The notes below the pieces were generated by a model. It made no database searches, was not told the origin of the DNA, and saw nothing but the letters and a program-made list of their open reading frames with translations. Below are positions 1 to 28,783 of a DNA stretch of 28,783 bases, in pieces. Source of the DNA: Gracilariopsis chorda (lineage: Eukaryota; Rhodophyta; Florideophyceae; Gracilariales; Gracilariaceae); contig NBIV01000451.1 in assembly GCA_003194525.1 (NCBI GenBank), positions 1 through 28,783 on the forward strand. Reading direction: 5' to 3'. Every line of letters begins with the position of its first letter. Within the stretch, counting starts at the first letter, position 1. The position numbers and the translations under genes were made by a program.

Positions 1-1081
1 AGGAATTTCCCCCGCAGCGCGGCAAGAGGCCCTTTGCTGGGAGCGACCGATTATTCGGGCGGAGTTCAGGTACCTTCCCCGGCAATACCGGTCCAACTTT
101 CTCCAAAACTTCATCCGCTACGAGCGGCGTTGGCGATCCCGATTCGGGTACTTTATCCCGTATCAGAAACGTGGAGATAGAGCGGATTGGCGCCGCCTCA
201 CCGACTAGGTCGGTTATGTAGCACTCCCCGAGTGGGTGGGCGCTTCCATGAAGCCTGCCGGGGGTGCTACAGTAGAACTTCCGCCGGTACTTACGTACCT
301 CGGTTCGCTGCTCATGCAGGATCCCCGGTCGGGGTTGTGGTCCGTAGTGGTTACGGGAGTGGGCGGCCCGCAATGCGGCTTATATCCTCAAACGAGGCGT
401 ACGACCAGTATCGTCTCTGGTTCCTTCAACCGCGCGTGCGGGCAGCGATCCGAAACCTGGATCTTCGCATCCCCTTGGGGCCAGGCCAACAATGAAGAGG
501 TCCTCCAATTACTTGGGTACATCAACAGCGTTAGCTGGAGTGAGGTCCCGCTGGAAGCAAAGCGGTCGTCTGGATGGCGGCAGCGGTAACACCGGTGGCC
601 CGGGACTGGGTAGAAACACCGCCCTTGCGGGTGATTTTATCTACTTCGACCCCTGGGAGTTCCGGGAAATTTCCTCCGAGGAGGCGCGCGAACTTCGCGA
701 TGCGCCCGGCATGTGCCGGAAGACCACCCGGTGGGGTACGTCGATTCTGACGATTACTACCGCGCATACGGCGGGGATGACCCAATGGTCGATAACGATC
801 CGGAAGAGCCCGGGGAGATGGACGTAGAGGACACCGGCGCTAGCGCGGAGGCTTCCCCAGAGGGGGTACCTCCGGCCGAGCCGGCTGCTGACCCTTCGGC
901 GGCGAGTGCCGGACCTTCTATCCCCAGCGGGGTAACGGCGAATGAAAACGAGATCATCGCGCGTTTTCTCCGGGGTGCCGGTCTTAGCGCTGCCGAGGTA
1001 TCGGGGGATGTCACCACCATGGCGGACGCGTTGGCCTACCGCCTTGCTGGGGGTTACGCCCCGGGCAACGGCGAAGAGTGA
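1..1081 (+). pseudogene. Antisense accessory gene of the chromovirus, copy A: 3' part, frameshifted
   Basis: This is colinear with about 22815-23888 of the intact copy B gene and runs opposite to gag-pol. Near position 1-700 it has many one-base insertions relative to copy B, for example an extra A near 167, an extra G near 190, an extra T near 214 and extra G bases near 235-240. The reading frame is therefore broken into short pieces. From about 713 to the TGA at 1079-1081 the last roughly 120 codons are open and nearly identical to copy B, with an acidic Asp/Glu/Pro/Ala-rich stretch ending in a predicted helical tail. I recognise no known family. The indels may be sequencing errors rather than real decay, because they cluster at the window edge. 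Confidence 0.75.
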
Positions 1082-1169
1082 GCTCCTTTTGTCCAGTTTT
1101 CCTGGTATTCTTTCCCTGGCTATGCCAGTTAGTGTAGTGTAGTATCGTGAGGAGCTAGCTGCTCCCCTG

Positions 1170-1175
1170 AATAAA
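1170..1175 (+). promoter_or_regulatory. AATAAA polyadenylation signal of the antisense gene, copy A
   Basis: A canonical AATAAA lies about 90 nt after the antisense gene stop codon, just downstream of a short GGAGC/GCTCC inverted repeat. Copy B has the same signal at the same place. It lies in the gap between two converging genes. Confidence 0.5.
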
Positions 1176-1274
1176 CTTTCCCGTTTAGAACGGTGATTTC
1201 CAATTAGCATTCCCCGTCTTAGACGGACTTTCCCTTGCTATCCTTTCTCATTGCCCTCCGCTCGCGCGGCAACG

Positions 1275-3913
1275 TTACCCAACTTGGGCATTAACCAGCG
1301 TGGCTGGGGCTGCAGTTCCCGTTTGACGGTGGTATCGCACGATCTGCGACCGTGGGAGGTGTTCAATTGGCTCCACGTATCCCACTGGGGTCGTACCCGT
1401 ACCAGCGGACGCGGTATTGTAGAATACCATCCTGGTCCCAGGTGTGTCCGACAAGTCGGTCTACTACGAACTCTCGTTCGTAGACCTGCCGGCCGTGCCG
1501 GGTGGTGGTTGTACTCCCTTGCGAGGGTTGTCCGCGGTGCGGTATAATGTCCCTTAGCAGGGTGTTCGGCGATAACTCCGACGTTGCCGTGCGCTGTCCT
1601 AGTGGCCGCTGCTCATGCGGGAAAATATCCCTCAAGAGGGTATGTGGTGTCACGGTTTTCCCCGGCAAGTCATTCCCCATTGGGGTGTCGTTGTTCCCGT
1701 CTTCACGGTAGGCCAGGCGAACCGCCAACCGGCGGGGGACTTGAACTCCGCATTCGCGGTTGAACTCACGAACCGCGAGTTTGCGGGAAGATGACCGCTC
1801 CTGCGGAATCGGCGTTTCCACGATCCCCTGGGGGGTCCCGTGCGACACGGTGGTTGGATGGCAAACCGCCTCCCTGCCAGGCGCACGAGCGCTCTGCACC
1901 GTACGTTCCGGCGGCGCCGTGGTGTCCCCGGCTACTGGGGGGTTGCCTAAGGCTAACTCCGGTACACCGGTATTTTGGTCAAAATTCCCCTTTGGGGGTG
2001 CCGGGCAGGTGCCGATGACACCCTTTTCAGGGGCCTGGCCGCTAAGTGCGGTGCACCGTCTCCATGAGGAGGAGCAGCGTCCGGTACGACCGGTTTCGAG
2101 CGTGCGATGGCGCGCGTTTTTTCCCGAGTTCCTCGGTTCTTCGCCGCAGCGTTGCGGTAGTTGGCGCAAATTATTCCCCGGAACGGGGGCTTCGATTCCG
2201 TCTGCGACGGGGAGCGTTTCCGAGCGCTGCGCGCCAGGGCCTGAAGCTTCGGATGCGGCTTGGCTACCTTTTCCCCGATAGGGGTGTGGGTATTTCCCAG
2301 CGGCGCTGGTGTATCTGGGCGCCTCTTCTCCGCGGGGCGCGGGTCTGAGCGACCTGATTGAACCGCTTCCGCGGGGACTTCCGCCAATGGCGGCTTTGAG
2401 GCATCTCCCTGCTCAGGGGATTGAGGGCGATTGTCGCCGTACTCCCGTATCGGGGATCCTTCCCTGACAGGGGTGTGCGGTAGCTGCGTTTCAGCTTCCC
2501 GTGTAACACGGTGTATTTGCCGCCTTTGCGGGACCTGCGCGTCTGGTTCCTGTTGCACAGCGCTGCCCGAGGACGGTGGATTAGTGTCGCGTGAGATACT
2601 CCGTGCTCCACGGTCAGTTGTCCGTATGGTACGTGTTTCCCGTTGCGACGGCGATCTCATTCCTCGAAAACGAGTGTTCTCCTCCCCTCCTGAGACGGAG
2701 CGGCGGGATAAGGGATAACATGCCCCGCCTGGCGGGTGTAGATTCGCGCCATAGGGGCGGGCACAGAGAGGCCCGAATTACCCGGCTGAGCCGGTGAGTC
2801 CGACAGGGTCGGTAGGTCTGAGAGTCCCCGGGAGGGGTGTGGTAGCACGGTAGGCCGTCTCCCCACCGATGTATCGGATGCAGAGCCATATTCCAGCGTA
2901 GGGTCCAGCGTAGCTGGTGCAGCCTCAGTCGAGGGTGGCGGAGCTAGCACGATGCGATCGCGAGATAACCGCTCATGCGCGTCACCCATTTCCACAACCA
3001 CTGTGTCCGTCGTGACGGAGATAACCTTGAAAGGACCATCCGCCACAGGCGAGAGCTTATGGTGCTTCTCCCTTTCAGGGTTGTAGTACTCCTTGCGGAC
3101 GAATACGAAGTCCCCGGAGTTGATCTGTTCCGGTTTGCCTCCTCGCAAGCGAGCATCGAAATTCCGTTTGTAGACGGCTTGGGCGTGGTCCATCGCCTTC
3201 CGCGCTGCGGGTACCAGCTTGGTCAGCCATGCTTTCCACTTCTGGCGGTAATCCTTCACAGAAGGGAACGCGTCCAACGTAGGTTGGGATTCCAACGCCA
3301 TTGGCGGGGGTGTCCGTGAAAGGACCAACTCGAAAGGGGATATTCCGGTAGTCCGGTGTACCTGCGTATTGTACGCAAAGGTCACGGCATCCGTGTAGAT
3401 ATCCAAGTCTTGGGGTGGTCAGCCGTGTAAGCACGGAGAGCTGCGAGCATTGTCCGGTTGAAACGCTCGACCTGCCCATTAGACTGGGATGATACGTGGT
3501 CGTGAAGAGATTCTTCACGTCCAGTATCCGACAGACGTCCTGGAAAAATCGCGATGCGAACTGTTTCCCGTTGTCGGAAAGTAGCTCCAAAGGAGGTCCG
3601 TAGGCAAACACCCAATGCCGCACAAAGGCGTGAGCGACCGTGTAGGCGGTAATCCTCTTTAGAGGGACTGTCCGAACTAATTTCGAGAACCTGTCCGTAA
3701 TAACGAGTAGGAACTTGTTGCCTCTCCTGGTAGAGAGCAATGGTCCGAGAATGTCAATTGCGACAAACTCGAGCGGCGCCCTGGCGGGGAATAGCTTCAT
3801 CCGTTTGGAGTGCTTCCGGAGTTTGACCCGGTTCTTCGCGCATTGCGTGCAAAACCGCACCGTAGCGTAGCAATCAACCGCCATGGCGGGCCAGTAGAAA
3901 TCCCTGCGAAGGG
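1275..3913 (-). pseudogene. pol: Integrase core, GPF motif, long linker and chromodomain of pol, copy A (frameshifted)
   Basis: This continues pol after a frameshift near 3940-3946. Fragments in different frames carry, in order, the integrase Zn-finger end (FCTQC near 3830), the catalytic core with Asp (AIDILGP) and Asp (LSDNGKQF), then after a second frameshift the Glu segment (GQVERFNRT, near 3450-3470). These are followed by the C-terminal GPF-like motif (ADGPFKVI, near 3030), a Pro/Ser/Arg-rich linker of about 480 residues in at least two frames, and a chromodomain (EFVVDRLVGHTWDQDG to YRVRWYGYDPS, about 1380-1480). One C is missing near 1380 relative to copy B, which truncates the chromodomain. 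The expected stop, by homology, is TAA at 1275-1277. All catalytic residues are present, so copy A would encode an integrase if the indels are artefacts. Confidence 0.82.
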
Positions 3914-6900
3914 TTAGATAAAGCTTCCTCCCACCGGAGTGTCCCCGAGTTTCGGGTAATGCGAAAGGTGCAATATCCGCTTCTGTAGCGTGTGCGGTAC
4001 CACAACTTGTGGGGTAGCCTCGACGGTCCTCACGAGGTAACCAATGTCGTTCACCCCGAAGGGGAGGTTCTCTCCGCCGTTGAGGCGTGCACGTATCCTT
4101 GTACAGAAGGGGTCCCCGAATTGTTCTCGGATCATTTCCTCGGTCTCAACCGGTACATAATTTCCCGGTATGGGTTTCTCAGAATCCTCTCGCGATGCGA
4201 GTAGGTAGTCGAAGTCAGCATCTTCGTCCCAGTTTTCTGGCTCAGCCTCGACGGCACATTCCGGATCATCCGGGTCCATTGCCATGAAACATGGGACTTC
4301 ATCATCCTCCGTTGGGAGTGCCTCCCCACTTGTGGGTAAACGCGACAGAGCGTCGGCTTGGGTGTTCTGCGCGCCCTTTTTATAAATGACTTGGAAGTCA
4401 TATTCCGCGAGGCGGAGTCTCCAGCGCATGAGGCGTCCCGACGGGTCGGAGATATTCATTAACCACCTCAGTGAGGAATGATCCGTGTACACGGTGAAAT
4501 GGACTCCCATAAGGTAGGGGCGCAGAGTGGTCATCGCCCATACGACGGCGAGGCACTCTTTCTCCGATACGGAGTAGTTCCGCTCATGAACATTGAGCGA
4601 ACGTGACCAATAACCAATTGGATGTCGTTCCCCCTCGGGGGTGGTTTGAAAAAGAGCACACCCGACTTGGTAGTCGCTCGAGTCCGTATCTACGGAGTAT
4701 GGCAACCCAAGTTTTGGGAGATGTAGGATTGGTGCTGATGTGACAGCCTCCTTCAAGGAGTTAAAGGCTTCCGATTGCTCGGGCGTAAATGTTCCCAGTT
4801 TTGGGGGGTTCCCCTTTCGCAACAACGCGTTCAGGGGCGCTGCAGTATCCGAAAAGTTCGGGATAAACCGTCGATAGACGTTGACCAGCCCCAGAAAGGA
4901 GCGCAGTTCCGTTTGAGTACGGGGTTCTTTCGCCTCAACGAGGGATTTGACTCGAGCTTTCTCGATCGCTAACCGTCCAGGACGGATAATGTGACCCAGA
5001 TACTTCACAGTATCTGTGAAAAACTCGCATTTCCTCAACTTGAGGGTAATTCCCGCATCGCGGAGTACGGTCAGCACGTCTCGGACGTGAGTGAGATGGT
5101 CGTCCAACGAGTTGGAGAAGATGATAATATCATCAAGGTAGACCAGACAACTCCGCCACTTAAAGCGGTTGAGTAGGATATCTACTGCACGCTGAAAGGT
5201 GGCGGGGGCGTTGGTTAACCCAAATGGCATCCGCTTGAAGCGGTACGTTCCTGCATGGGAGGTGAATGCGGTTTTGTCGCGATCCTCCTGTCTGACAGGT
5301 ACTTGCCAATATCCCCAATTGGCATCAAGGGCCGTGAACACGGTGGCGTCTCCAAGGGAGTCAATGCACTCGTCCATACGAGGGATGGGGTACGTGTCCC
5401 TAACAGTCACGGCATTGAGCCGGCGGTAGTCGACACAGAACCTCCAGGTTCCGTCAGCCTTTAAAGCCAGTACAACTGGGGATGCCCAGGGCGATTGAGC
5501 GGGCTCAATCACACCTGCGCGGAGCATCTTTTCCACCTGGGACTGCTCCTCTTCCCGAGCTTTCGGACCTGCCCTGTAAGGGGGTTGTGCAACCGGTCGC
5601 GCACCGGGGATTAAATCGATCCGGTGTTCCGTTGCATCAATCTCGCCAAGCGAGCCATCCCACATTGTGGTGAATTCCCGTAACATAGTACGGAGTTTGT
5701 CGCGGTGCGACTCTGGCACGTGGCTGAAGTCCAGCGCTTCAAGTGCTTTTTCCGGATCAATCCGGTCATTGCTCGATGGAGCATTGTCCTGTGGAACAGG
5801 TGTGGTTCGCAATTCCGAGTTACTCGGTATGTTCGACGCTGAAGTAGCGGTTTCCTCCCCCTCCTTAGACTTGACGTCTTCGGACGGCGGGGTGAACTCC
5901 TCAGAAGAGGTGGTAACTCCGAGTACATCGGCGGCTGTCATCTTCGTTGGCAGCATTCCCATAGGATGGGGGGTTACACTCCCAATTACTTGGTGTTTGA
6001 CCAGATACTGGGGGTGTTTGCCAAGGTTGGCAACCAATATCCGGAAAGGAACATCCGGGGAAATGGAGACAATTCCATTAGCCAGCGCCAGCTGGGATTT
6101 CTCGTACAACGAGGCGAGGGGTTGTATAACCCGAAGACCGTGTTGACGGGAATTTACCTGTACCCAGACTTGGGACTCAGCCGGTATAGAAACCGAGGCA
6201 GCGACGCGGAGCTTGGTGGACTCGCGGGACGCGGGCGGTGGTTCCTGCGCAGCAGGGAGCGGAACTTGTTTCCGAGAGGACCGCTTTAGCGGGCGGCGAA
6301 CAATCGGAACCGACGATCCGTCGTCAAGTTCTACACGCCTGAGGCGGGGCCTGATTGCGTCGACAAATCTGTCGCAGTAATCACATCCCAGTATGACTGG
6401 TGCTGCCAGTGAACGGCAAACGATGAAGTCCAACTTCACCACAGATGTACCAAGTCTCACGACGAGGTCCACTGTGCCCACCGTTTGTAACGGATTGTTG
6501 TTCGCATCCGAAATGTCGGGGACCGCGTCAGAGCGGATACGCGACCGCACAAGCGGGGGTAACAATGATTCCACGACAAAGTTGGGGCCTGCACCTGTAT
6601 CCAGGACGGTGAGAAACCTCACCATAAACTGGGGGTCAAGGCCAAGGTCGGCATAGACCTTATAATTGCGCTTGGCCAAGACCAAGACTCTACCGGGAAT
6701 CCGGGGATTTTTACTCCGTATCCACGGGCGACGCAACACACCGAGGTGCGCAGAGTCCGCGTCAGCGGTGTCTTTCCTCGAGAGGACTTTCACCGGGGAG
6801 CGAGGCGAGGACGCCTCGGGCGCCAACAGCCTCGTTTTTGAGGACGCCTCTCCCAAAGGGGAGACTCCCTCAGTTAGTTTTCCGCCTTCGGCGGTGGGTT

Positions 6901-6922
6901 GGTTTCCTCGACAACGAGTGCT
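3914..6922 (-). CDS. pol: Pol: aspartic protease, reverse transcriptase, RNase H and start of integrase, copy A
   Basis: This is a frame of about 1,000 codons that opens inside the end of gag (stop-free from 6922) and has no ATG near its beginning, so expression by -1 frameshifting from gag is the likely route. Counting residues from 6856: protease motif DTGAG at 86-90 with GCDY-type flap/strand residues near 157; a beta-rich spacer at about 215-300; RT at about 410-680 with LALKADGTWRFCVDYRRLN, catalytic FTALD at 507-511 and YLDD at 573-576; RNase H at about 718-840 with VDTDSSD, SEKE, TDHSSL and ADALSR; then the integrase N-terminal HLSH start. The stop TAA at 3914-3916 follows a one-base frameshift in the integrase Zn finger relative to copy B. 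RT and RNase H catalytic residues are all present. The product would be a polyprotein of a cytoplasmic virus-like particle. Confidence 0.93.
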   Translation of the reverse strand, partial: STRCRGNQPTAEGGKLTEGVSPLGEASSKTRLLAPEASSPRSPVKVLSRKDTADADSAHLGVLRRPWIRSKNPRIPGRVLVLAKRNYKVYADLGLDPQFMVRFLTVLDTGAGPNFVVESLLPPLVRSRIRSDAVPDISDANNNPLQTVGTVDLVVRLGTSVVKLDFIVCRSLAAPVILGCDYCDRFVDAIRPRLRRVELDDGSSVPIVRRPLKRSSRKQVPLPAAQEPPPASRESTKLRVAASVSIPAESQVWVQVNSRQHGLRVIQPLASLYEKSQLALANGIVSISPDVPFRILVANLGKHPQYLVKHQVIGSVTPHPMGMLPTKMTAADVLGVTTSSEEFTPPSEDVKSKEGEETATSASNIPSNSELRTTPVPQDNAPSSNDRIDPEKALEALDFSHVPESHRDKLRTMLREFTTMWDGSLGEIDATEHRIDLIPGARPVAQPPYRAGPKAREEEQSQVEKMLRAGVIEPAQSPWASPVVLALKADGTWRFCVDYRRLNAVTVRDTYPIPRMDECIDSLGDATVFTALDANWGYWQVPVRQEDRDKTAFTSHAGTYRFKRMPFGLTNAPATFQRAVDILLNRFKWRSCLVYLDDIIIFSNSLDDHLTHVRDVLTVLRDAGITLKLRKCEFFTDTVKYLGHIIRPGRLAIEKARVKSLVEAKEPRTQTELRSFLGLVNVYRRFIPNFSDTAAPLNALLRKGNPPKLGTFTPEQSEAFNSLKEAVTSAPILHLPKLGLPYSVDTDSSDYQVGCALFQTTPEGERHPIGYWSRSLNVHERNYSVSEKECLAVVWAMTTLRPYLMGVHFTVYTDHSSLRWLMNISDPSGRLMRWRLRLAEYDFQVIYKKGAQNTQADALSRLPTSGEALPTEDDEVPCFMAMDPDDPECAVEAEPENWDEDADFDYLLASREDSEKPIPGNYVPVETEEMIREQFGDPFCTRIRARLNGGENLPFGVNDIGYLVRTVEATPQVVVPHTLQKRILHLSHYPKLGDTPVGGSFI
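6857..6922 (-). promoter_or_regulatory. Gag/pol overlap with candidate -1 frameshift site and hairpin
   Basis: Gag ends at TAA 6874-6876. The pol frame is open from 6922, giving a 49-nt overlap in the -1 frame. Immediately before the gag stop the sense strand reads G GAA AAC, an imperfect slippery heptamer in which only the A-site codon re-pairs well. Twelve nt after it lies a perfect stem TCTCCC/GGGAGA with a CTTT loop. The first in-frame initiator-like codon in pol is only TTG. The layout fits ribosomal frameshifting, but the heptamer is not canonical and the spacing is longer than the usual 5-9 nt. Confidence 0.4.
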
Positions 6923-19875: not shown

Positions 19876-21238
19876 TTACCAAATCTCTCAACCTCTCTCC
19901 GGTTCTCTCAGTCCGACAAGAGTTCTTCTTCGCGTCGACCCCCATCACGACGTGGTGGTCACCGGTCAGGAGCAGGCAGTCGTCCAAGAGAGAATATGCA
20001 GCCCGTGCATCAACGACACATAACCGATGAGCTTGCGCAGGTGGAATTAGGAACTAGGACGGAGCTTCCTCAAAATGTTATGGAATCTCACAACCCTGAA
20101 GAGATATACTTGAACTCCTCTCATTCTTCCAGTAATCAACAGGAACGAGATAGGACGGTTATGCGGTTCGCTGGGAGACCTCGCCAAGGCATTCACTATG
20201 GATCAAAATATGTCTGGGATGCAAGGGCAGAAAACATTCGTCAAGGCCTCGCACGTCCAACCACTTCATATCCGGAGTACCAACCAATCACTGGCAGACT
20301 TCCAGCGTGTTGTGGGACGTGCGGTGCAAACGGCCATCGAGCACCTCGCTGTCCTATCAAAGATTCGGGGTGGGTGCTTCGTATTCGTATGTGCAAATAT
20401 TGTGGCGCAGTTCTGCTTGGTGCAGAGACCGAAGGAACATGCTGTGGATATAAAAGCTCCAGATCGCTTGTAGTTTCTTTCAGACGAGTGCATATCAATT
20501 CGCAACTTGAAGACATATATCGCTTGCGTTCTTTTCAAACGCTATCAACACACTTAAATGTGTTATTTGCAACCGTTGTCACATTCATGGATATGAAGTA
20601 CGTTCGGGATGGAAGTCCGTCATTTCTTCGACTTCAAGGCAATGTGTCTCTTTCTGTTCCAGGCCAGGACGTGCGCTACACATATTTGTGGTCGGAAGGT
20701 CCTCCCAGTCTTAATTCACGGGATTCTTATTCTTCTTTCACAAGAAGAATGGTGTCTAACCCGAATATTCGATACTTGGTTCCAAAGTTGTACGATCTCA
20801 TGCAACCAAGACCAGATATTGTCTGACAGAGATATAGAAATTTGTTCAGACCAGACGAAAGTGTTCGCAGGAGATCAAACGCGGACGAGTCTACTCTGGA
20901 CATCTCTGCAGACGCTATTCAGGAAGGAATAGTTGTCCGGAATTATCAAGGTGCCCATGAAGCCCGAATCGAGGTGAGCTGTTGTGCAGGACCGTTACCA
21001 GAAGACAGCCGAGGCCGAGCTCTTGCAATGAGAGCTATCGTCTTAGAGCCGAGTGGACTGTTCAGGTCAGAAGCCCCAGTCGCCCAGCTGGTAGGCGGAA
21101 GAGAATCCCATCACATGTCAACCGGAAATCTTCGACGTCGAGTTGTCAAGTAGAAGCGTTTGAAGCCTGATTCAATGGAAGCTGAGAAGGGAGCTTTTCC
21201 ACTGCTCTACCCTTACGGTGAGGTTCATGCCCCGTATG
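19876..21238 (+). pseudogene. Helitron N-terminal fragment (Helitron 2), truncated by chromovirus copy B
   Basis: The frame opens after a TGA at 19873-19875 with an Arg/Ser/Gly-rich start (SRRPPSRRGGHRSGAGSRPR). The first ATG is 19996. It aligns with the Helitron 1 N-terminal region: RFAGRPRQG, YVWDAR, CX2CX4HX4C knuckle CGTCGANGHRAPRC, zinc finger CKYCGAVLLG...CC, FMDMKYVRDGSPSFLRLQGN, YLVPKLYDLMQPRPDIV and DISADAIQEGIVVRNYQG. In-frame TGA (20824-20826, where Helitron 1 has Arg) and TAG (21151-21153) interrupt it. Homology resumes (EKGAFPLLYPYGEVHAPY) and stops at 21238, where the LTR of copy B begins. The HUH and helicase domains would lie right of copy B, outside the window, or are lost. 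Confidence 0.88.
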
Positions 21239-22044
21239 TGTGGTGCAATGCCCCAAAGGAAAAAACACCGAAAGACGTTCGGGATCTTCCTCTCACGAGG
21301 TGAACCCAGTTGGGTAGAGCCCTCCCAGAGGTGTCACGGCGAAGCCGGTTTGTAAGACCAGGGACACCTGTCGCGACTCGCGCAGGGAGGTGAAGGCGAA
21401 GAATCGGTATCCGCGTGAGCGGGGTGTGATCCTCAGTAGAGGTATGTTTCCACGTAAGTGGGGAAGTGTGAGCGGATGCGCACACGAGGGCCGCGGATAG
21501 CGGGAGGTGCTACCCTAAAAAGGGGAAGAAGGAAGGACGAAGTGGGTCGCGAGAGCGACGAGCAGATACGGCAATGCCGGTGGACAGGACTCCGTATACA
21601 GGGCGAAACACCAATGCAATTGGAACAATTATACTCCCAGTGATGGGTCCCTTTAGATGTGCAAGGGGGTTAGATGTCCCGTGGTTCACGGCGTTTCCCT
21701 CCAAGGAGGAGTAGAGTACGCGCGCAAGCGGCAACAACTAGAGCCAATTACCCAGGTTAGGGTCCCTTGTTGGGGAAGGTTTACTGGTGCGACGGCAGTG
21801 CGCCGTCGCACTAAGTACTAGCTTCCCAGAAATGGGTGTGAAAATAATAAATAATATTAACTAAAATACTCCACATTTCGTGGCAACATCCACTACTGTG
21901 GCCAGCCGCCAATTGACCCAAAACCGTGTCCCACGTGTCCATATCCACCATAGTGGGGCGTAGTTCATATACACACTACACAACCGATAATATCGGGAAA
22001 GCGTTCAAGTACCAAGAATCCCTCCCTGAGGGCGTTGCACTTCA
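21239..22044 (-). repeat. LTR (3' LTR of copy B), 806 bp
   Basis: Aligns end to end with 9154-9960. On plus it runs TGTGGTGCAATG...GTTGCACTTCA. A polypurine tract lies directly at its internal edge, which identifies it as the 3' LTR of a minus-strand element. The 10-bp hairpin (21787-21811) and the AT-rich island are conserved. Several of the small hairpins differ from copy A only in their loops, for example CCAAT-GCA-ATTGG here against CCAAT-ATG-ATTGG. Confidence 0.93.
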
Positions 22045-22058
22045 TATCCCCCCCTTAA
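22045..22058 (-). other. Polypurine tract
   Basis: Plus strand TATCCCCCCCTTAA, so the sense strand has TTAAGGGGGGGATA immediately before the 3' LTR. This is the expected primer for plus-strand DNA synthesis in reverse transcription. It lies 42 bp from the ATG of the antisense gene. Confidence 0.85.
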
Positions 22059-22100
22059 GACGGGAAAACGACCGCGGACGCGGAGGATTCCCAGACGAAA

Positions 22101-23888
22101 ATGGGTGATAAAAGCGCGTCCTCTGTCTCCGGTTCTCCGGTAAATCCCTCTGCACCAGAGTCATCAAGCACACAAACGACAACAACAGCCACCCTCCAAA
22201 AGGGAAAAATGAACGAAGACAACAACATCAACAACCACAGCCAACCTCCGAGACTTCTCGGGCGATACACCACCGGTTTCCGGTCAGTTCCCCTGCCTCA
22301 GGGCGATCGAAATCCGGTACAACCGGGGAATATGGCTGCTGCAGCCGACCATCCCTTCGAATTACCACCTTCGGTGGTGTCCTCCGGAACCACTCCGGTG
22401 TCCAACTGGCCAACCTACAACACCCTGGTGGGGCTCAACCCGATGAATCGGAATCATGCGTCGCGCCTGCGCTTTGCCCCGTGGTTTCACCCGGTCGCTG
22501 TCCTCAATGAGGGATTGGTCACCGCTTATGCGGATGGATCAGACACCCTTCCGGGGGATCTGCCCAGAGCAGTCACCACGTCGTGGGATTGGCGTCACCG
22601 GATTGCGATTCCGCGTCACCACCTCCGAAGAAATTCGGGCGAGACCGTCGCTGCGGCGCAGACCGCGTTGACGCGGATGGCGTACCAACGGCAGAGCCGG
22701 GCTCCATTCGATGTACCGGTCCCACCGGAGTTTGGCTTTGACGTTAGCTACTTCCGCACTCGCGGGGAGATTGGGTACGGCGAGAACCTTTTCCGCCTCA
22801 AGACCCTCGCTTGGAGGAATTTCCCCGCAGCGCGGCAAGAAGCCCTTTGCTGGGAGCGACCGATTATTCGGGCGGAGTTCAGGTACCTTCCCCTGCAATA
22901 CCGGTCCAACTTTCTCCAAAACTTCATCCGCTACGAGTGGCGTTGGCGGTCCCGATTCGGGTATTTTATCCCGTATCAGAACGTGGAGATAGAGCGGATT
23001 GCGCCGCCTCACCGACTAGGTCGGTATGTAGCACTCCCCGAGTGGTGGCGCTTCCATGAAGCCTGTCGGGGGTGCTACATAGAACTCCCGCCGGTACTTA
23101 CGTACCTCGGTTCGCTGCTCATGCAGGATCCCCGGTCGGGGTTGTGGTCCGTAGTGGTTACGGAGTGGGCGGCCCGCAGTGCGGCTTATATCCTCAACGA
23201 GGCGTACGACCAGTATCGTCTCTGGTTCCTTCAACCGCGTGTGCGGGCAGCGATCCGAAACCTGGATCTTCGCATCCCCCTTGGGGGCCAGGCCAACAAT
23301 GAAGAGGTCCTCCACTTACTTGGGTACATCGACAGCGTTAGCTGGAGTGAGGTCCCGCTGGAGCAAAGTGGTCGTCTGGATGGCGGCAGCGGTAACACCG
23401 GTGGTCCGAGACTCGGTAGAAACACCGCCCTTGCGGGGGATTTTATCTACTTCGACCCCTGGGAGTTCCGGGAAATTTCCTCCGAGGAGACGCGCGAGCT
23501 TCACGATACGCCCCGGCATGTGCCGGAAGACCACCCAGTGGGGTACGTCGATTCTGACGACTACTACCGCGCATACGGCGGGGATGACCCAATGGTCGAT
23601 AACGAACCGGAAGAACCCGGGGAGATGGACGTAGAGGAAACCGGCGCTACCGCGGAAGATTTCCCAGAGGGGGTATCTCCGGCCGAGCCGGCTGCTGACC
23701 CTTCGGCGGCAAGTGCCGGACCTTCTATCCCCAGCGGGGTGACGGCGAATGAAAACGAAATCATCGCACGTTTCCTCCGGGGTGCCGGTCTTAGCACTGC
23801 CGAGGTATCGGGGGATGTCACCACCATGGCGGACGCGTTGGCCTACCGCCTTGCTGGGGGTTACGCCCCGGACGATGGGGGTGAGTGA
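22101..23888 (+). CDS. Antisense accessory protein of the chromovirus, 595 residues, unknown family
   Basis: ATG at 22101 has a good context (AAAATGG) and the frame is fully open to TGA 23886-23888. It is transcribed opposite to gag-pol, starts 57 bp inside the 3' LTR, and ends about 190 bp before the pol stop on the other strand. Residues 1-50 are Ser/Thr/Asn-rich and probably disordered. Residues 90-430 are rich in Trp, Arg, Tyr and Phe and look globular (WDWRHRIAIPRHH, FIRYEWRWRSRFGYF, WWRFHEACRGCYIELPP, NEAYDQYRLWFLQPR). Residues 470-560 are acidic and Pro/Ala-rich, and the tail (NEIIARFLRGAG onward) is helical. No signal peptide, membrane segment, zinc finger or enzyme motif is seen, so it is not an envelope. 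Copy A's C-terminal half is nearly identical in protein. Transcription from an antisense LTR promoter is inferred. Confidence 0.8.
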   Translation: MGDKSASSVSGSPVNPSAPESSSTQTTTTATLQKGKMNEDNNINNHSQPPRLLGRYTTGFRSVPLPQGDRNPVQPGNMAAAADHPFELPPSVVSSGTTPVSNWPTYNTLVGLNPMNRNHASRLRFAPWFHPVAVLNEGLVTAYADGSDTLPGDLPRAVTTSWDWRHRIAIPRHHLRRNSGETVAAAQTALTRMAYQRQSRAPFDVPVPPEFGFDVSYFRTRGEIGYGENLFRLKTLAWRNFPAARQEALCWERPIIRAEFRYLPLQYRSNFLQNFIRYEWRWRSRFGYFIPYQNVEIERIAPPHRLGRYVALPEWWRFHEACRGCYIELPPVLTYLGSLLMQDPRSGLWSVVVTEWAARSAAYILNEAYDQYRLWFLQPRVRAAIRNLDLRIPLGGQANNEEVLHLLGYIDSVSWSEVPLEQSGRLDGGSGNTGGPRLGRNTALAGDFIYFDPWEFREISSEETRELHDTPRHVPEDHPVGYVDSDDYYRAYGGDDPMVDNEPEEPGEMDVEETGATAEDFPEGVSPAEPAADPSAASAGPSIPSGVTANENEIIARFLRGAGLSTAEVSGDVTTMADALAYRLAGGYAPDDGGE

Positions 23889-23955
23889 ACCCTGTAGTCC
23901 AGTTTCCTGGTTCTTCTTTCCCTGGCTATGCCAGTTAGTGTAGTGTAGTATTGTG

Positions 23956-23981
23956 GGGAGCTAGCTGCTCCCTTGAATAAA
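23956..23981 (+). terminator. Hairpin plus AATAAA after the antisense gene
   Basis: GGGAGC-TAGCT-GCTCCC (23956-23972) is followed by AATAAA at 23976-23981, about 90 nt after the stop codon. Copy A keeps the AATAAA and most of the stem. It supports the antisense frame being a real transcription unit with its own 3' end. Confidence 0.5.
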
Positions 23982-24079
23982 CTTTCCCGTTTAGAACGGT
24001 GCTTCTCGGTTGAGTTCCCCGTCTTCGACGGACTTTGCCTTGTTATCCTTTCCTTTCGCTCTCCGCTCGCGCGGCAACG

Positions 24080-26071
24080 TTACCCAACTTGGGCATTAAC
24101 CAGCGTGGCTGGGGCTGCAGTTCCCGTTTGACGGTGGTATCGCAGGATCTGCGACCGTGGGAGGTGTTCATTTGGCTCCCACGTATCCCCACTGGGGTCA
24201 TACCCGTACCAGCGGACGCGGTATTGTAGAATACCATCCTGGTCCCAGGTGTGTCCGACAAGTCGGTCTACTACGAACTCTCGTTCGTAGACCTGCCGGC
24301 CGTGCCGGGTGGTGGTTGTAATCCCTGGCGAGGGTTGCCCGCGGTGCCGTATAATGTCCCTTAGCAGGGTGTTCGGCGAAAACTCCGACGTTGCCGTGCG
24401 CTGTCCTAGTGGCCGCTGCTCATGCGGGAAAATATCCCTCAAGAGGGTGTGTGGTGTCACGGTTTTCACTGGCAAGTCGTTCCCCAGAGGGGTGTCGTTG
24501 GTCCCGTCTTCACGGTAGGCCTGGCGAACCGCCAGTCGGCGGGGGACTTGGGTTCCGCCTTCGCGGTTGAGCTCACGAACCGCGAGTTTGCGGGAAGATG
24601 ACCGCTCCTGCGGGATCGGCATTTCCACAATCCCCTGGGGGGTCCCGTGCGACACGGTGATTGGGTGGCAAACCGCCTCCCTGCCAGGCGCACGAGCGCT
24701 CTGCACCATACGTTCCGGCGATGCCGTGGTGTCCCCGGCTACTGACGGGTTGCCTGGGGCTAACTCCGGTACACCGGTATTTTGGTCAAAATTCCCCTTT
24801 GGGGGGTGCCGCGCAGGTGCCGATGACACCCTTTTCGGGGGAATTGCCGCTAAGCGCGGTGCACCATCTCCATGAGGAGGAGCAGCGTCCGGTACGACCG
24901 GTTTCGAGCGTGCGATGGCGCGCGTTTTTCCCGAGTTCCTCGGTTCTTCGCCGCAGCGTTGCGGGGGTTGGCGCAAATTATTCCCCGTAGCGGGGGCTTC
25001 GATTCCGTCTACGACGGGAGGCGTTTCCGGTGCTTGCGAGCCAGGGCTTAAAGCTTCGACTGCGGCTTGGCTGCCTTTTTCCCCAAGAAAGGTGTGGGTA
25101 TTTCCCTGTGAGGCCGGCGTATCTGGGCGCCCCTTCTCCCCAAGGCGCGGGTCTGATCGACCTGATTGAACCGCTTCCGCGGGGACTTCCGCCAACGGCG
25201 GCTTCGAGGCATCGCCCTGCTCAGGGGATTGGAGGCAATCGTCACCATACTCCCTTGTCGGGGATCCTTGCCTGACAGGGGTGTGCGGTAGTTGCGCTTC
25301 AACTTCCCGTGTAGCACGGTATGTTTTCCGCGTTTGTGGCGATGCCTCCGGGGATGGATTGGGCGATTGCCTTTCCGCTGCTGCGGTATTGGAGTGAGGC
25401 TTCTCGTTTTCCCATGACAAACGGTGTATTTGCCGCTTTTGCGGGGCCTGCGCGTCTGGTTCCTGTTGCACAGCACTGCCCGGGAACGGGGGATTAGTGT
25501 CGCGTGACATACTCCGTGCTCCACGGTCAGTGTTCCGTATGTTACGGTGTGTTTCCCGTTGCGCCGGCGATATCGTTCCTCGAAAACGAGTGTCCTCCTC
25601 CCCCTCCTTAGACGGAGCGGCGGGATAAGAGATAACATTCCCTGCCTGGCGGGTATAGATGCGCGCCAGTGGGGCGGACGTGGTAGGGGCGGGCGCTGAG
25701 GGGCCCGAATTACCCGGCTGAGCCGGTGAGTCCGACAGAGTCGGTAGGTCTGAGAGTCCCCGGCTGGGGTTTGGTAGTACCGTAGGTCTAGTACTCCCGG
25801 ATGGTTCCGGTGTTCCAGAGTCCGTAGAAACGGGGTTGCCTGGATCCAGGACTACCTCTGACGAGGGAGGAGGGGCAAGGACAACACGATCACGGGAAAT
25901 CCGTTCGTGCGTGTCCCCCATCTCTACCACGAAAATGTCGGTGTTAACAGAGATGACCTTGAAGGGTCCATCCGCCACAGGCGAGAGTTTGTGACGCTTC
26001 TCCCGTTCCGGGTTGTAGTATTCCTTCCTGATGAAGACGTAGTTATTTGCCCGAATCGGGGACGGTTTCCC
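24080..26071 (-). CDS. pol: Pol C-terminus, copy B: GPF motif, long disordered linker, chromodomain
   Basis: This is in frame with the integrase at 26072-27334, separated only by TGA 26072-26074. It begins with VFIRKEYYNPEREKRHKLSP and the GPF motif (ADGPFKVI, about 25955-25978) typical of chromovirus integrase C-termini. About 480 residues rich in Pro, Ser, Arg and Gln follow, with a short internal repeat (HTLLRDIFPHEQRP and NTLLRDIIRHRGQP). It ends in a classical chromodomain at about 24131-24280: EFVVDRLVGHTWDQDG, then YRVRWYGYDPSGDTWEPNEHL, including the usual aromatic residues. Chromodomains guide integration to histone-marked heterochromatin. The linker is unusually long, since most chromoviruses have a much shorter one. 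Stop TAA is at 24080-24082. Confidence 0.85.
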   Translation of the reverse strand, partial: GKPSPIRANNYVFIRKEYYNPEREKRHKLSPVADGPFKVISVNTDIFVVEMGDTHERISRDRVVLAPPPSSEVVLDPGNPVSTDSGTPEPSGSTRPTVLPNPSRGLSDLPTLSDSPAQPGNSGPSAPAPTTSAPLARIYTRQAGNVISYPAAPSKEGEEDTRFRGTISPAQRETHRNIRNTDRGARSMSRDTNPPFPGSAVQQEPDAQAPQKRQIHRLSWENEKPHSNTAAAERQSPNPSPEASPQTRKTYRATREVEAQLPHTPVRQGSPTREYGDDCLQSPEQGDASKPPLAEVPAEAVQSGRSDPRLGEKGRPDTPASQGNTHTFLGEKGSQAAVEALSPGSQAPETPPVVDGIEAPATGNNLRQPPQRCGEEPRNSGKTRAIARSKPVVPDAAPPHGDGAPRLAAIPPKRVSSAPARHPPKGNFDQNTGVPELAPGNPSVAGDTTASPERMVQSARAPGREAVCHPITVSHGTPQGIVEMPIPQERSSSRKLAVRELNREGGTQVPRRLAVRQAYREDGTNDTPLGNDLPVKTVTPHTLLRDIFPHEQRPLGQRTATSEFSPNTLLRDIIRHRGQPSPGITTTTRHGRQVYEREFVVDRLVGHTWDQDGILQYRVRWYGYDPSGDTWEPNEHLPRSQILRYHRQTGTAAPATLVNAQVG

Positions 26072-27334
26072 TCACAAGCGAGCGTCGAAATCCCGCTTGT
26101 AAGCGGCTTGGGCCCGTGCAATAGACTTCCGCGCAGCGGGGAACAGCTTGGAAAGCCATTGCTTCCATTGCTGCCAGTAGATACCCACAGATGGGAAATT
26201 GTCCAAGGTAGCTTGGGGTTCCAGCGCCACAGGCGGGGGTGTTCTAGATAGAACCAACTCGAATGGCGAAACTCCGGTAGTCCGGTGTACCTGCGTATTG
26301 TACGCGTAGGTTACCGCATCAGCGTAGAGATCCCAATTCGTTGGGTGGTCAGCGACGTAGGAACGTAACGCCGCGAGTAACGTCCGGTTAAACCGTTCAA
26401 CTTGCCCATTACACTGGGGGTGGTAGGTAGTCGTGAACAAGTTCTTGACATCCAGGATGCGACAAACATCCTGGAAGAACTTGCTCACGAACTGCTTCCC
26501 GTTGTCAGAGAGCACCTCCACAGGGGAACCGTAGACAAAAATCCAGTGCGTCACCAGAGCCTGAGCCACCGTGAGAGCGGTTATCCTCCGAAGAAGGACA
26601 GTCCGTACCAGCTTAGAAAAGCGGTCGGTGATGACAAGTAGAAACTTGTTTCCACGTTTTGTGGTGAGTAGTGGTCCGAGAAGATCAATTGCGATAAACT
26701 CGAGTGGCGCCCTTGCGGGGAATAGTTTCATCTTCTTCGCATTTTTGCGGAGTTTGACGCGATTCTTCGCGCATTGGCTACAAAACCGCACAGTTGCGTA
26801 GCAATCCACCGCCATTGCGGGCCAATAGAAATCCCTTCGCAGGGTTAGGTAGAGTTTCCTCCCACCTGGGTGACCTCCTATGGGGGCGTAGTGTGATAGA
26901 TGTAACACCCGCGATTGCAGGGAATGTGGTACCACAATCTGTGGGCGGGCATCGACCTTTCTTACGAGGTAGCCTTTGTCGTTTACCCCGAAAGGGAGAT
27001 CTTCACCACCGTTGATACGGGCACGAATTCTCGTACAGAATGGGTCGCCGAATTGTTCTCGGATCATTTCTTCCGGTGATACCGGTACAAAGTTTCCCGG
27101 TAACGGGTTCTCAGATTTATCTCGCGATGCGAGTAGTTCGTCAAAATCAGCATCCTCGTCCCAGTTTTCTGGCCTAGCCTCGATGGCATATTCCGGATCA
27201 TGCGGGTCTATAGCCATGAAACATGGGACTTCATCATCCTCCGTTGGGAGTGCTTCCCCACTTGTGGGTAACCGCGACAAAGCGTCGGCCTGGGTGTTCT
27301 GCGCGCCCTTTTTTATAAATGACTTGAAAGTCAT
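26072..27334 (-). CDS. pol: Integrase, copy B (with RNase H tail), ends at an in-frame TGA
   Basis: 420 residues in one frame. They begin in the RNase H tail (KKGAQNTQADALSRL) just after a T-run frameshift near 27312. The H2C2 zinc finger is complete: His148, His155, Cys185, Cys188. The catalytic core has Asp217 (AIDLLGP), Asp277 (LSDNGKQF) and Glu313 (GQVERFNRT) with the D,D-35-E spacing. The segment then runs to AAYKRDFDARL and TGA 26072-26074. Copy A has CGA (Arg) at the matching place (3143-3145), so this is a C to T nonsense change at a CpG. All catalytic residues are intact. Confidence 0.88.
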   Translation of the reverse strand: MTFKSFIKKGAQNTQADALSRLPTSGEALPTEDDEVPCFMAIDPHDPEYAIEARPENWDEDADFDELLASRDKSENPLPGNFVPVSPEEMIREQFGDPFCTRIRARINGGEDLPFGVNDKGYLVRKVDARPQIVVPHSLQSRVLHLSHYAPIGGHPGGRKLYLTLRRDFYWPAMAVDCYATVRFCSQCAKNRVKLRKNAKKMKLFPARAPLEFIAIDLLGPLLTTKRGNKFLLVITDRFSKLVRTVLLRRITALTVAQALVTHWIFVYGSPVEVLSDNGKQFVSKFFQDVCRILDVKNLFTTTYHPQCNGQVERFNRTLLAALRSYVADHPTNWDLYADAVTYAYNTQVHRTTGVSPFELVLSRTPPPVALEPQATLDNFPSVGIYWQQWKQWLSKLFPAARKSIARAQAAYKRDFDARL

Positions 27335-28783
27335 ATTCCGCGAGGCGGAGTCTCCAGCGCATGAGGCGTCCCGACGGGTCGGAGATATTCATCAACCACC
27401 TCAATGAGGAATGATCCGTGTACACGGTGAAATGAATTCCCATAAGGTAGGGGCGCAGAGTGGTCATCGCCCATACGACAGCGAGGCACTCTTTCTCCGA
27501 TACGGAGTAGTTCCGCTCATGAACATTGAGCAAGCGCGACCAATAACCAATTGGATGTCGTTCCCCCTCGGGGGTGGTTTGAAAAAGAGCATACCCGACT
27601 TGGTAGTCGCTCGAGTCCGTATCTACGGAGTATGGCAACCCAAGTTTTGGGAGATGTAGGATTGGTGCTGATGTGACAGCCTCCTTTAAGGAGTTGAAGG
27701 CTTCCGATTGCTCGGGCGTAAATGTTCCCAGTTTTGGGGGGTTCCCCTTTTCGCAACAACGCGTTTAGGGGCGCTGCAGTATCCGAAAAGTTCGGGATAA
27801 ACCGTCGATAGACGTTGACCAGCCCAAAAAAAAGAGCGCAGTTCCGTTTGAGTACGGGGTTCTTCCGCCTCAACGAGGGATTTGACTCGAGCTTTCTCGA
27901 TCGCTAACCGTCCAGGACGGATAAAGTGACCCAGATAGTTCACAGTATCTGTGAAAAACTCGCATTTCCTCAACTTGAGTGTAGTTCCCGCATCGCGGAG
28001 TACGGTCAGCCCGTCTTGGACGTGAGTGAGATGGTCGTCCAACGAGTTGGAGAAGATGATAATATCATCAAGGTAGACCAGACAGCTCCGCCACTTAAAG
28101 CGGTTGAGTAGAATATCTACTGCACGCTGAAAGGTGGCGGGGGCGTTGGTTAACCCAAACGGCATCCGCTTGAAGCGGTACGTCCCAGCATGGCAGGTGA
28201 ATGCGGTTTTATCGCGATCCTCCTGTCTGACAGGTACTTGCCAATATCCCCAATGAGCATCAAGGGCCGTGAACACGGTGGCATCTCCAAGGGAGTCAAT
28301 GCACTCGTCCATACGAGGGATGGGGTAACGTGTCCCCTGACAGTCACGGCATTGAGCCGGCGGTAGTCGACACAGAACCTCCAGGTTCCGTCGGCCTTTA
28401 AAGCCAGTACAACTGGGGATGCCCAGGGTGATTGAGCGGGCTCAATCACACCTGCGCGGAGCATCTTGTCCACTTGGGACTGCTCCTCTTCCCGAGCTTT
28501 CGGAACTGCCCTGTAAGGGGGTTGTGCAACCGGTCGCGCACCGGGGATTAAATCGATCCGGTGTTTCCGTTGCATTAATCTCGCCAAGCGAAGCCATCCC
28601 ACATTGTGGTGAATTCCATAACATAGTACGGAGTTTGTCGCGGTGCGACTCTGGCACGTGGCTGAAGTCCAGCGCTTCAAGTGCTTTTTTCCGGATCAAT
28701 CCGGTCGTTGCTCGATGGAGCATTGTCCTGTGGAACAGGTGTGGTTCGCAATTCCGAGTTACTCGGTATGTTCGACGCTGAAG
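27234..28783 (-). pseudogene. pol: RT and RNase H of pol, copy B (frameshifted, runs off the window)
   Basis: Very close to copy A 4300-5848, but split over at least five frames. Recognisable pieces are RNase H (VDTDSSDYQVGYALFQ, SEKECLAV, TDHSSLRWLM) at 27234-27638, the RT connection (NVYRRFIPNFSDTAAPLNAL) near 27740-27850, the RT palm (MDECIDSLGDATVFTALDA, YLDDIIIFS) at 27860-28312, and the RT start (ADGTWRFCVDYRRLN) near 28360-28440. Breaks coincide mostly with homopolymers, for example an extra T near 27752, a run of eight A near 27826-27833, and extra bases near 28327, 28565 and 28690. The breaks may be sequencing errors because they begin abruptly and continue to the window edge. Confidence 0.85.

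Follow-up and report, generated by a model that had tools for sequence, protein, structure and literature searches.

The analysed stretch of Gracilariopsis chorda DNA (the window, 28,783 nucleotides) carries two copies of a chromovirus, A and B, on either side of a zone of Helitron genes (Table 1). LTRs of 807 bp flank the element, one per copy lying inside the window, and near-identical LTRs are numerous across the genome. Reverse transcriptase, RNase H and integrase follow one another in this order, as read from minus-strand frames with the domains split over copies A and B, and a chromodomain is found downstream of the integrase. The Gag of copy A has relatives in Agarophyton chilense and further relatives with PF03732; its frame gave no match of its own in Pfam at E 0.001. 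No match was obtained when a phage collection was queried with part of the pol DNA, and no relative when viral contigs were queried with one pol protein and an alignment. A known RNA family as the identity of the hairpins described below was ruled out by 0 Rfam matches at the gathering score in the whole window.

Table 1. Features of the window and example hairpins
Feature	Position	Strand	Remark
Antisense-ORF zone, copy A	1-1080	+	broken frame
3' pol (integrase/chromodomain) zone, copy A	1100-3913	-	interrupted frames
pol frame, copy A, 1002 aa	3914-6922	-	RT + RNase H; RVT_1 and RT_RNaseH matches
gag frame, copy A, 728 aa	6874-9060	-	CCHC knuckle by eye
LTR, copy A	9154-9960	-	TGAAGTGC...ACCACA ends read on minus strand; 94% match to 21239-22046
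Helitron genes and flanks	9961-21238	.	internal negative control, chance-level hairpins
LTR, copy B	21239-22045 (to about 22046)	-	match to copy A LTR
Antisense ORF, copy B, 609 aa	22059-23888	+	Gracilariopsis chorda relative, 48%
3' pol frame with chromodomain, copy B	24080-26071	-	PF00385, E 2.8e-10, scored in frame 24083-26071
Integrase frame, copy B	26072-27388	-	zinc-binding H2C2 (Integrase_H2C2) and rve core
RNase H/RT pieces, copy B	27234-28783	-	shifted frames, past window edge
Hairpin CCCCAAAGGGG	9166-9176		CCCC-AAA-GGGG, stem 4, loop 3
Hairpin CCAATATGATTGG	9526-9538		CCAAT-ATG-ATTGG, stem 5, loop 3
Hairpin CCCCAGGTTGGGG	9666		
Hairpin CCGATAATATCGG	9900-9912; also 21984		CCGATA-A-TATCGG
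Hairpin CCAGCGTGGCTGG	1295 and 24100		
Hairpin CCTGTCTGACAGG	5287 and 28222		

An initial annotation of this DNA had claimed that the element is saturated with tiny hairpins beginning with CC and ending with GG, in LTR, coding and spacer DNA alike, and the six of its seven examples that were looked up are all present. Scored with CC…GG ends, a stem of at least 4 bp and a loop of 1-6 nt, such hairpins number 227 in copy A and 157 in copy B; 200 dinucleotide shuffles yield 26.7 on average, and at most 43, for A and 20.2 for B. The Helitron zone holds 8 where 9.0 are expected, or 0.7 per kb, in agreement with the claim that it does not share the density. The observed count was attained by none of 200 shuffles in A or in B and by 134 of 200 in the Helitron zone. 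Each of the eight scored element zones (LTRs, gag, pol, 3' pol and antisense-ORF) contains 19.6-24.8 hairpins per kb, with 24.5 in the 3' pol zone of copy A, which bears out the claimed saturation. In the LTR of copy A, for which about 20 had been counted by hand against one or two by chance, 20 CC..GG hairpins were scored against 2.0 in dinucleotide shuffles (the interval used was 9160-9966, the actual LTR being 9154-9960); the LTR of copy B has 19 against 1.9. Hairpins of the opposite type, GG..CC, are weakly raised in the internal parts (42 against 23.2 in A, 26 against 18.0 in B) and number 0 in each LTR.

The excess also persists when the encoded proteins are held constant. Codon-preserving shuffles gave 6.5 hairpins for the gag of copy A (54 observed), 10.2 for its pol (59), 7.8 for the antisense ORF of copy B (36) and 10.0 for its 3' pol frame (53). 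The signal thus survived the shuffles and the Helitron comparison by which, according to the initial annotation, it could be refuted. Composition or codon usage, which would leave no special feature to explain, might be suspected, as the G+C content of the elements exceeds that of most of the Helitron zone, but it is refuted by both kinds of shuffle (36-59 seen against 6.5-10.2 with codons preserved) and by the host locus L032, which at 57% GC has 10 hairpins against 13.1 expected; its probability is practically nil.

The hairpins are of one size, 11-14 nt with a stem of 4-5 bp and a loop of 3-4 nt. CC..GG spans of 11, 12, 13 and 14 nt occur 81, 145, 113 and 42 times, compared to 10.2, 9.8, 9.6 and 8.1 expected, and the counts for spans of 17-30 nt hardly depart from chance. 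Compared to the range first described, stems of 4-6 bp and loops of 1-5 nt, the hairpins proper fall into four narrower classes (stem 4/loop 4, stem 4/loop 3, stem 5/loop 3 and stem 5/loop 4), and by arithmetic loops of 1-2 nt are about as frequent as chance complementarity within a 3-4 nt loop. Stem length is capped, an extra flanking Watson-Crick pair being present in 18 of 189 hairpins in A and 11 of 131 in B, where roughly a quarter is the estimated expectation. Beyond the hairpin ends the arms have no common sequence, and at 9526 copy B keeps the same stem with the entire loop swapped (CCAAT-GCA-ATTGG). Inner G-U pairs are rare (in pol sense TG 18 against 10.2, GT 9 against 9.3); the commonest inner mismatch is C-A (35 against 10.3), which reads U-G on the opposite strand. 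The array consists of multiple stem-loops with a common recognition feature, the CC/GG base and the 11-14 nt span, as is the case for dispersed packaging signals.

Neighbouring hairpins keep a minimum linker. Gaps of 0-3 nt occur 2 times against 16.7 expected in A and once against 10.3 in B, the null having been calibrated with 60 shuffles. A planting control recovered on average 154.2 of the 191 hairpins planted. A single shuffled control also lacked short gaps, and the exclusion held in the 60-shuffle test. In the related locus L033, gaps of 0-5 nt number 1 against 15.9, and in L066 no clear linker rule is seen (5 against 6.4). Even spacing was rejected, the gaps being random-like overall (CV 0.99 in A) save for the short-gap exclusion.

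The uniform size could also be expected if tiny mobile units had inserted themselves at many places in the element. This very improbable explanation was rejected: within long open frames the hairpins occupy all three codon phases, their arms share only the ends, and the A/B indels measure 1 nt in 52 of 76 cases. The three longest indels (13, 15 and 25 nt) are not CC..GG units by eye, in an alignment viewed in part, and the relatives so far have the same sites with bases changed but not missing.

When the count was repeated on other family members, as the initial annotation had proposed, the excess was found in four related chromovirus families of the genome, with differing end rules. The rule is chiefly C first in A, L033, L147 and L152 and chiefly C second in L066, L148 and L151; L140, a related element, has the hairpins without the end rule. 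L066, L148 and L151, at 98-99% alike, belong to a single family, and L152 and L033 (96%) to a second, so that the independent hairpin-rich families number four, including that of the window. Three further Ty3/gypsy families and a Copia locus lack the excess, and so do three of four blind host stretches. Among the 80 contaminant gypsy loci scored (L067-L146), L140 reached z 7.7 and L096 z 5.4, and the others 4.0 or less. L096 and L127, labelled 'no excess' in the tree, have a weak excess (153 against 99.3 and 74 against 46.5), in L096 without a sharp size peak or end rule. A single origin of the hairpin trait is supported at 92/94 in a tree of a hand-picked sample (26 loci, 11 proteins and the window), and among the loci sampled the trait is confined to one clade.

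Most hairpin positions do not coincide between families. Those that do exceed the offset controls, with 14 of 39 against 1.4 for L038/L152, 9 of 40 against 1.2 for L038/L147 and 12 of 69 against 2.8 for L038/L066. In the comparisons with L152, L147 and L066, respectively, the coincident hairpins include 5, 2 and 3 pairs that stayed Watson-Crick although both partners changed, 6, 1 and 13 cells in which a one-sided change left a non-Watson-Crick pair, and 0, 2 and 0 cells in which changes on both sides did so.

Stems evolve more slowly than their surroundings at synonymous sites, four-fold sites changing about half as fast in stems as outside them when sub-families are compared. Between L038 and L049, 9 of 122 four-fold sites differ in stems (7.4%) and 84 of 517 outside (16.2%, p=0.010); the corresponding values are 7/27 and 136/237 for L152 versus L038 (p=0.002) and 12/29 and 143/190 for L147 versus L038 (p=0.0007). 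Two of the six comparisons made are weak, L038 versus L152 (31/60 and 110/200, p=0.66) and L038 versus L147 (27/46 and 130/175, p=0.045). Copy B differs from A at 3 of 740 stem sites, 22 of 238 loop sites and 179 of 3767 sites outside, counted with hairpins in poorly aligned stretches excluded and indel cases tallied separately (3 and 5). Hairpin breakage is less frequent among sub-family differences (22/343) than among private mutations (17/131, p=0.025, unmatched for protein constraint). Shared variants in 30 pol pieces revealed no clear stem depletion (stem 53/672, outside 275/3179, loop 23/205), in our opinion because sub-family-specific hairpins were pooled as stems, hence the pairwise sub-family comparison; the LTR part of this set (29 of 30 loci) was badly aligned and was excluded.

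Of the two causes offered in the initial annotation, selection gains support from these counts and template switching does not. Quasipalindrome template switching turns imperfect inverted repeats into perfect ones. In bacteria, the associated mutations act at imperfect inverted repeats (PMC7202029). A reverse transcriptase or repair process could in this way perfect palindromes by arm-to-arm copying that ends at CC/GG; Watson-Crick pairing without G-U tolerance is the outcome expected of templated copying, and a directional end rule is possible, as the 3' hairpin end is GG on any strand. However, 131 usable private mutations in 30 copies created 1 hairpin (1.0 expected) and broke 17 (19.5 expected), with no bias towards new perfect hairpins. 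One-arm rewriting of broken hairpins was not evident either, 4 of 7 multi-change cases being one-sided compared to 52% in 805 control windows. Arm-to-arm copying also predicts many pairs changed on both sides, but the 740 + 846 A/B stem sites hold 0 of them and a less cleanly aligned A/B stretch one, and between sub-families they occur in 2 hairpins; nor does such copying predict slower stems at four-fold sites. The template-switching tests have limited power, the samples being small and the informative changes few. We regard this mutational origin as improbable; the hairpins are apparently kept by selection and not by template switching of the reverse transcriptase.

Selection probably acts on the hairpins in genomic RNA. 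Compared to synonymous shuffles, copy A folds more stably in gag (-39.1 vs -33.2 kcal/mol per 120 nt) and in pol (-37.7 vs -32.8). Against 15 such shuffles the folding z is -8.0 for A gag and -6.4 for A pol; on the sense strand L066 pol gains no more (z -2.5) than the Helitron ORF does (z -2.8). In local folding of the sense strand, 38% of the A hairpins dominate their stretch (antisense, 36%), with a mean outer-pair probability of 0.43; with so few dominant, RNA folding at equilibrium does not by itself account well for the array. The scarcity of inner G-U pairs and the lead of C-A among inner mismatches also count against the RNA reading. Alternatively, the hairpins could act as single-stranded DNA in the minus-strand cDNA inside the particle, in compaction, protection or strand transfer. 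The palindromes are shared by both strands, DNA is compatible with short loops and the absence of G-U pairs, the antisense folding gain in A is equally large (calculated with RNA parameters), and a pol-sense C-A corresponds to T-G on the minus strand. The base after the 3' GG is an A more often in pol sense than in the mirror orientation in copy A gag-pol (74 vs 21), the non-coding LTR (11 vs 3), the antisense-ORF zone of A (10 vs 1) and L033 (29 vs 9); in the antisense-ORF zone of B the bias falls short of significance (14 vs 8, p=0.29), and L147 does not show it (6 vs 8). As a pol-sense flank bias in the LTR and antisense-ORF zone is a minus-strand bias too, it cannot separate RNA from single-stranded DNA. 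We infer that the RNA is the form that matters and consider a DNA role quite improbable.

The closest known phenomenon is the genome-scale ordered RNA structure (GORS) of RNA viruses. In persistent RNA viruses and coronaviruses, hundreds of short-range stem-loops run through the coding sequence beyond codon constraints, with positions poorly conserved among relatives, paired sites less variable and a folding gain of about 15% (PMC7642675). The element likewise has many short stem-loops in coding sequence, positions that turn over and slower paired sites, and the energy of A gag and pol lies 13-18% below shuffled controls, depending on the denominator (with lengths folded and shuffles differing from those of PMC7642675); in L066 pol the folding gain reaches z -2.5 only. 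It differs in its quantised stems, CC..GG end rule, near-absence of G-U pairs and mostly kept minimum linker, and in that its host is an LTR retrotransposon; such uniform units are not described in the GORS passages of PMC7642675. Relative to GORS, the quantised hairpin array is a new version. As proposed for GORS, the array might shield single-stranded RNA from the host's surveillance or small-RNA silencing, its stems being kept too short for double-strand sensors. The stem cap, the turnover of positions at constant density, the coverage of the whole element, the folding gain in A and the viral precedent all fit such a shield, but neither the CC..GG rule nor the narrow 11-14 nt span nor the near-absence of G-U pairs would follow from it; we hold it to be unlikely, though less so than the mutational or DNA readings.

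The explanation that we favour, and to which we give somewhat better than even credence as a whole, is that the plus-strand RNA of this chromovirus clade is a selected string of micro-hairpins serving as a dense, dispersed packaging or compaction code read by Gag. Purifying selection would hold the genomic RNA as isolated units, each a Watson-Crick stem of 4-5 bp with a CC/GG-closed base in the family of the window and a free-sequence loop of 3-4 nt, separated by linkers mostly of at least about 4 nt and spanning LTR, coding and non-coding parts alike. The element's own Gag or nucleocapsid would then read the stem base, and the family-specific end rules are what a co-evolving reader predicts. 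Within this explanation selection for pairing is quite likely, and reading by Gag is a tentative proposition of perhaps one chance in three; the foremost, though unproven, candidate cause of the array is recognition by Gag or packaging. Bolder and doubtful is the version in which the whole retroelement genome, with its coding sequence, is written as a quantised 11-14 nt hairpin code that has a family-specific stem-base rule and is read by the element's own Gag, with reader and rule co-diverging between families of one algal chromovirus clade.

Dispersed packaging signals are known from MS2, picornaviruses and hepatitis B virus, in which genome-spread stem-loops have one common feature and both spacing and recognition motif count (PMC6281560). 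In MS2 the motif lies in loop and bulge (PMC6281560), whereas here the stem base is shared and the loops are free; Gag binding, moreover, is putative. Structured segments were detected by SHAPE in the RNA of Ty1 and of the yeast Ty3/gypsy model Ty3; like HIV-1 RNA, these are A-rich mosaics, with stable structured regions of up to 30% (Ty1, Ty3) or about 40% (HIV-1), and the common-features section of that source does not mention uniform micro-hairpin saturation (PMC11381356). Titles and abstract openings on hairpin or palindromic retrotransposons of red algae describe no such array, and those on retrotransposon packaging hairpins and on GORS in retrotransposons contain nothing comparable. To our knowledge, about 20 hairpins per kb is denser than any known set of dispersed packaging signals.

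RNA viruses are known to contain pervasive RNA structure for which no function is agreed, partly since the stems are irregular and hard to count. The hairpins of this element are uniform and each unit can be listed from the sequence; moreover, one genome holds families with and without them, and related families differ in the position of the C. This combination makes the question of what reads a genome-wide RNA structure directly testable, and it suggests that an LTR retrotransposon can bear a second, structural code over its coding sequence.

The initial annotation had described the chromovirus as saturated with tiny perfect hairpins whose stems open with CC and end with GG (CC..GG). This was confirmed with stems of at least 4 bp and loops of 1-6 nt scored against 200 dinucleotide shuffles: copy A carries 227 such hairpins (shuffle mean 26.7, maximum 43) and copy B 157 (mean 20.2, maximum 30). 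The Helitron zone is free of the excess, as had been claimed, with 8 hairpins compared to 9.0 expected, a number that 134 of the 200 shuffles equal or exceed. The reverse class (GG..CC) amounts to 42 versus 23.2 in the internal part of A and to 0 versus 2.0 in its LTR. The excess survives both dinucleotide and codon-preserving controls. Synonymous-codon shuffles yielded 6.5 for the 54 hairpins of gag, 10.2 for the 59 of pol, 10.0 for the 53 of the B chromodomain frame, 7.8 for the 36 of the antisense frame and 4.5 for the 5 of the Helitron frame; when codon-junction dinucleotides were also preserved, the respective values were 8.7, 11.0, 11.2, 9.1 and 3.2. Hairpin starts fall in all three codon phases, and density is 19.6-24.8 per kb in all eight element zones scored.

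The genome holding the window spans 91.3 Mb in 1081 contigs. Copies A and B are oriented alike and separated by Helitron genes, and the minus strand of the element carries, in this order, LTR, gag, RT-RNase H, integrase and chromodomain. The antisense frame is uninterrupted in copy B and broken by frameshifting in copy A (1-1080); it has no Pfam match, and its relatives are Gracilariopsis chorda BWQ96_03215 (48%) and two others. The pol protein has its top match in Agarophyton chilense (70%), and proteins of the same species are among the Gag relatives (57-67%). These protein similarities make a red alga the probable host. Between the copies lie a long Helitron frame (Helitron_like_N and PIF1) with a GGxRxNxGG-repeat frame ahead of it, a second frame, Helitron-like as judged by eye, that ends just short of the copy B LTR, and a PIF1 fragment that terminates close to the copy A LTR.

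Features of the two element copies and of the region between them
Feature	Position (strand)	Remark
Copy A, LTR retrotransposon	1-9960	cut off by window edge at one end
Copy B, LTR retrotransposon	21239-28783	cut off by window edge at one end
Antisense frame, 609 aa	22059-23888 (+)	in copy B; opposite strand to gag-pol, before the other (3') LTR
Helitron-region entry	13051-18492 (+)	
Helitron-region entry	19876-21153 (+)	
Helitron-region entry	10006-11178 (-)	
68-bp unit, four in tandem	19311-19582	copies 2-4 75-90% identical to the first

The hairpins are of strikingly uniform size. When all CC..GG hairpins of 4 or more pairs were sorted by total span, the counts formed a narrow peak at 11, 12, 13 and 14 nt (81, 145, 113 and 42 versus 10.2, 9.8, 9.6 and 8.1 expected), flanked by 27 and 24 at 9 and 10 nt (9.2 and 9.3) and 24 and 16 at 15 and 16 nt (8.9 and 8.6); spans of 17-30 nt occur 3 to 11 times versus 9 to 11 expected. 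GG..CC spans have no comparable peak, except at 9 nt (27 versus 10.9). The dominant stem-plus-loop classes are 4+4 (100 versus 7.3), 4+3 (59 versus 7.5) and 5+3 (73 versus 2.2), and 3-bp stems with loops of 3-4 nt are two- to threefold above expectation. The 6+3 class stays at chance level (1 versus 0.8). Hairpin size is capped, with an extra outer pair in 18 of the 189 hairpins of A and 11 of the 131 of B. On the pol-sense strand, which codes for gag-pol, stems with one inner mismatch occur at about chance, except for C-A (35 versus 10.3) and, weakly, T-G (18 versus 10.2), and mismatches of the outermost pair are roughly doubled (C-A 44 versus 18.8, A-A 28 versus 12.8, A-G 34 versus 16.3). 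Loops have no fixed sequence. Neighbouring hairpins avoid gaps below 4 nt (2 versus 16.7 in A, 1 versus 10.3 in B) and, in the decayed relative L033, below 6 nt (1 versus 15.9); gaps of 6-14 nt are in excess (53 versus 31.3 in A, 40 versus 21.2 in L033). Short-gap avoidance is not clearly present in locus L066.

Thirty LTR loci from this genome were scored in 500-bp bins. In 28 of them the excess falls to about chance beside the LTR on one side or both; L005 is located at the end of a contig, and L017 has hairpin-rich sequence to either side. Three of four 10-kb host stretches chosen blind are at chance (L031, 11 versus 8.3; L032, 10 versus 13.1; L034, 13 versus 9.8), and the fourth, L033 (84 versus 18.4), harbours a decayed element related to this one. 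The one Copia locus scored is at chance (2 versus 3.5), as are three Ty3/gypsy loci whose pol identity is 35-38% (L149, 1.0-fold; L150, 0.8-fold; L153, 0.9-fold). All six sampled loci with 66-74% pol identity reach 2.5- to 3.0-fold, and the window's own family 3.2- to 3.5-fold. The hairpin-rich loci of this genome group into four families. The end rule is chiefly C first in A, L033, L147 and L152, and chiefly C second with a free first base in L066, L148 and L151. Among 80 gypsy loci on prokaryote-labelled contigs of GTDB genomes, one, L140, reaches 2.2-fold; it lies on a Robiginitomaculum MAG contig, its gag-pol is of this type, and it has no end rule. The gypsy-like loci L096, L127 and L111 on contaminant contigs display a weak excess of short hairpins (1.5- to 1.6-fold), in L096 with neither a sharp size peak nor an end rule; the remainder, among them the closest outgroup of the tree, L067, are nearer chance. 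In the RT-protein tree, one change suffices for the hairpin-rich loci (support 92/94).

Selection and mutation were weighed against each other by comparing copies. With B hairpins as reference, A differs at 3 of 740 stem, 22 of 238 loop and 179 of 3767 outside sites; with A hairpins as reference, at 17 of 846, 19 of 270 and 168 of 3649, an asymmetry in stem conservation that may be explained by decay of copy B, which looks decayed. L038 and L049, members of the two sub-families with long open frames, differ by 4.9-5.5% in stems, 8.7-12.2% in loops and 9.0-9.3% outside, and paired changes preserve two hairpins. At four-fold degenerate codon sites, where protein constraint is removed, this pair differs at 9 of 122 stem versus 84 of 517 outside sites (p=0.010) and, in the other direction, at 9 of 123 versus 81 of 514 (p=0.014). 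The corresponding counts are 31 of 60 versus 110 of 200 (p=0.66; reverse 7 of 27 versus 136 of 237, p=0.002) for L152 and 27 of 46 versus 130 of 175 (p=0.045; reverse 12 of 29 versus 143 of 190, p=0.0007) for L147. New mutations look blind to hairpins: among 131 usable private single-copy mutations, one generates a hairpin versus 1.0 expected, and 17 disrupt an existing one versus 19.5 expected. Established differences tend to avoid such disruption (22 of 343 versus 17 of 131 private mutations, p=0.025).

Several further differences between copies were recorded. Loops as a class diverge faster than the DNA around them; at 9526-9538 and 21611-21623 the stem is identical in both copies and the entire 3-nt loop is swapped (ATG to GCA). 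Of 76 indels between A and B (1-5844 and 9154-9962 aligned with 22815-28783 and 21239-22046), 52 are single-base, several of them within coding frames, and these may reflect sequencing error or decay, which are indistinguishable here. In a comparison of L035-L064 with L001-L030, pol falls into two sub-families about 9% apart and the gag zone of 15 LTR loci shares 98.2% identity or more with copy A, which suggests that elements recombined with one another.

By analogy, the array would behave most like the genome-scale ordered RNA structure (GORS) of RNA viruses and like dispersed packaging signals (PMC6281560); it differs from both by its quantised hairpin size and its end rule. Hairpin positions coincide between families 14, 9 and 12 times (1.4, 1.2 and 2.8 expected) and most turn over, a partial retention resembling coronavirus GORS, whose positions mostly turn over according to PMC7642675. 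The RNA of Ty3, the best-studied relative, is described in PMC11381356 as a mosaic with structured regions of up to 30%. A literature search, with subscription journals mostly outside its coverage, retrieved no report of such a hairpin array.

In pol-sense orientation, A follows the 3' GG more often than T occupies the mirror position on the other side (74 versus 21 in A gag-pol, 10 versus 1 in the A antisense-ORF zone, 29 versus 9 in L033 and 11 versus 3 in the LTR, p=0.057), which points to one functional strand, either genomic RNA or the complementary cDNA. L152 has the same bias in pol-sense (7 versus 1; 1 versus 7 in contig orientation, as the match is on the minus strand), and it is weaker or absent in the B antisense-ORF zone (14 versus 8) and L147 (6 versus 8). 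Isolated hairpins with 3-nt flanks are predicted to be stable (median -5.4 kcal/mol), but only 38% of hairpins dominate the predicted folding within 150-nt windows. Under nearest-neighbour rules, CC..GG and GG..CC stems are equal in stacking energy, so that something reading the stem base is the best explanation of the end rule. Gag, which has to recognise its own RNA, would be the natural candidate for this reader, also because the end rule differs between families.
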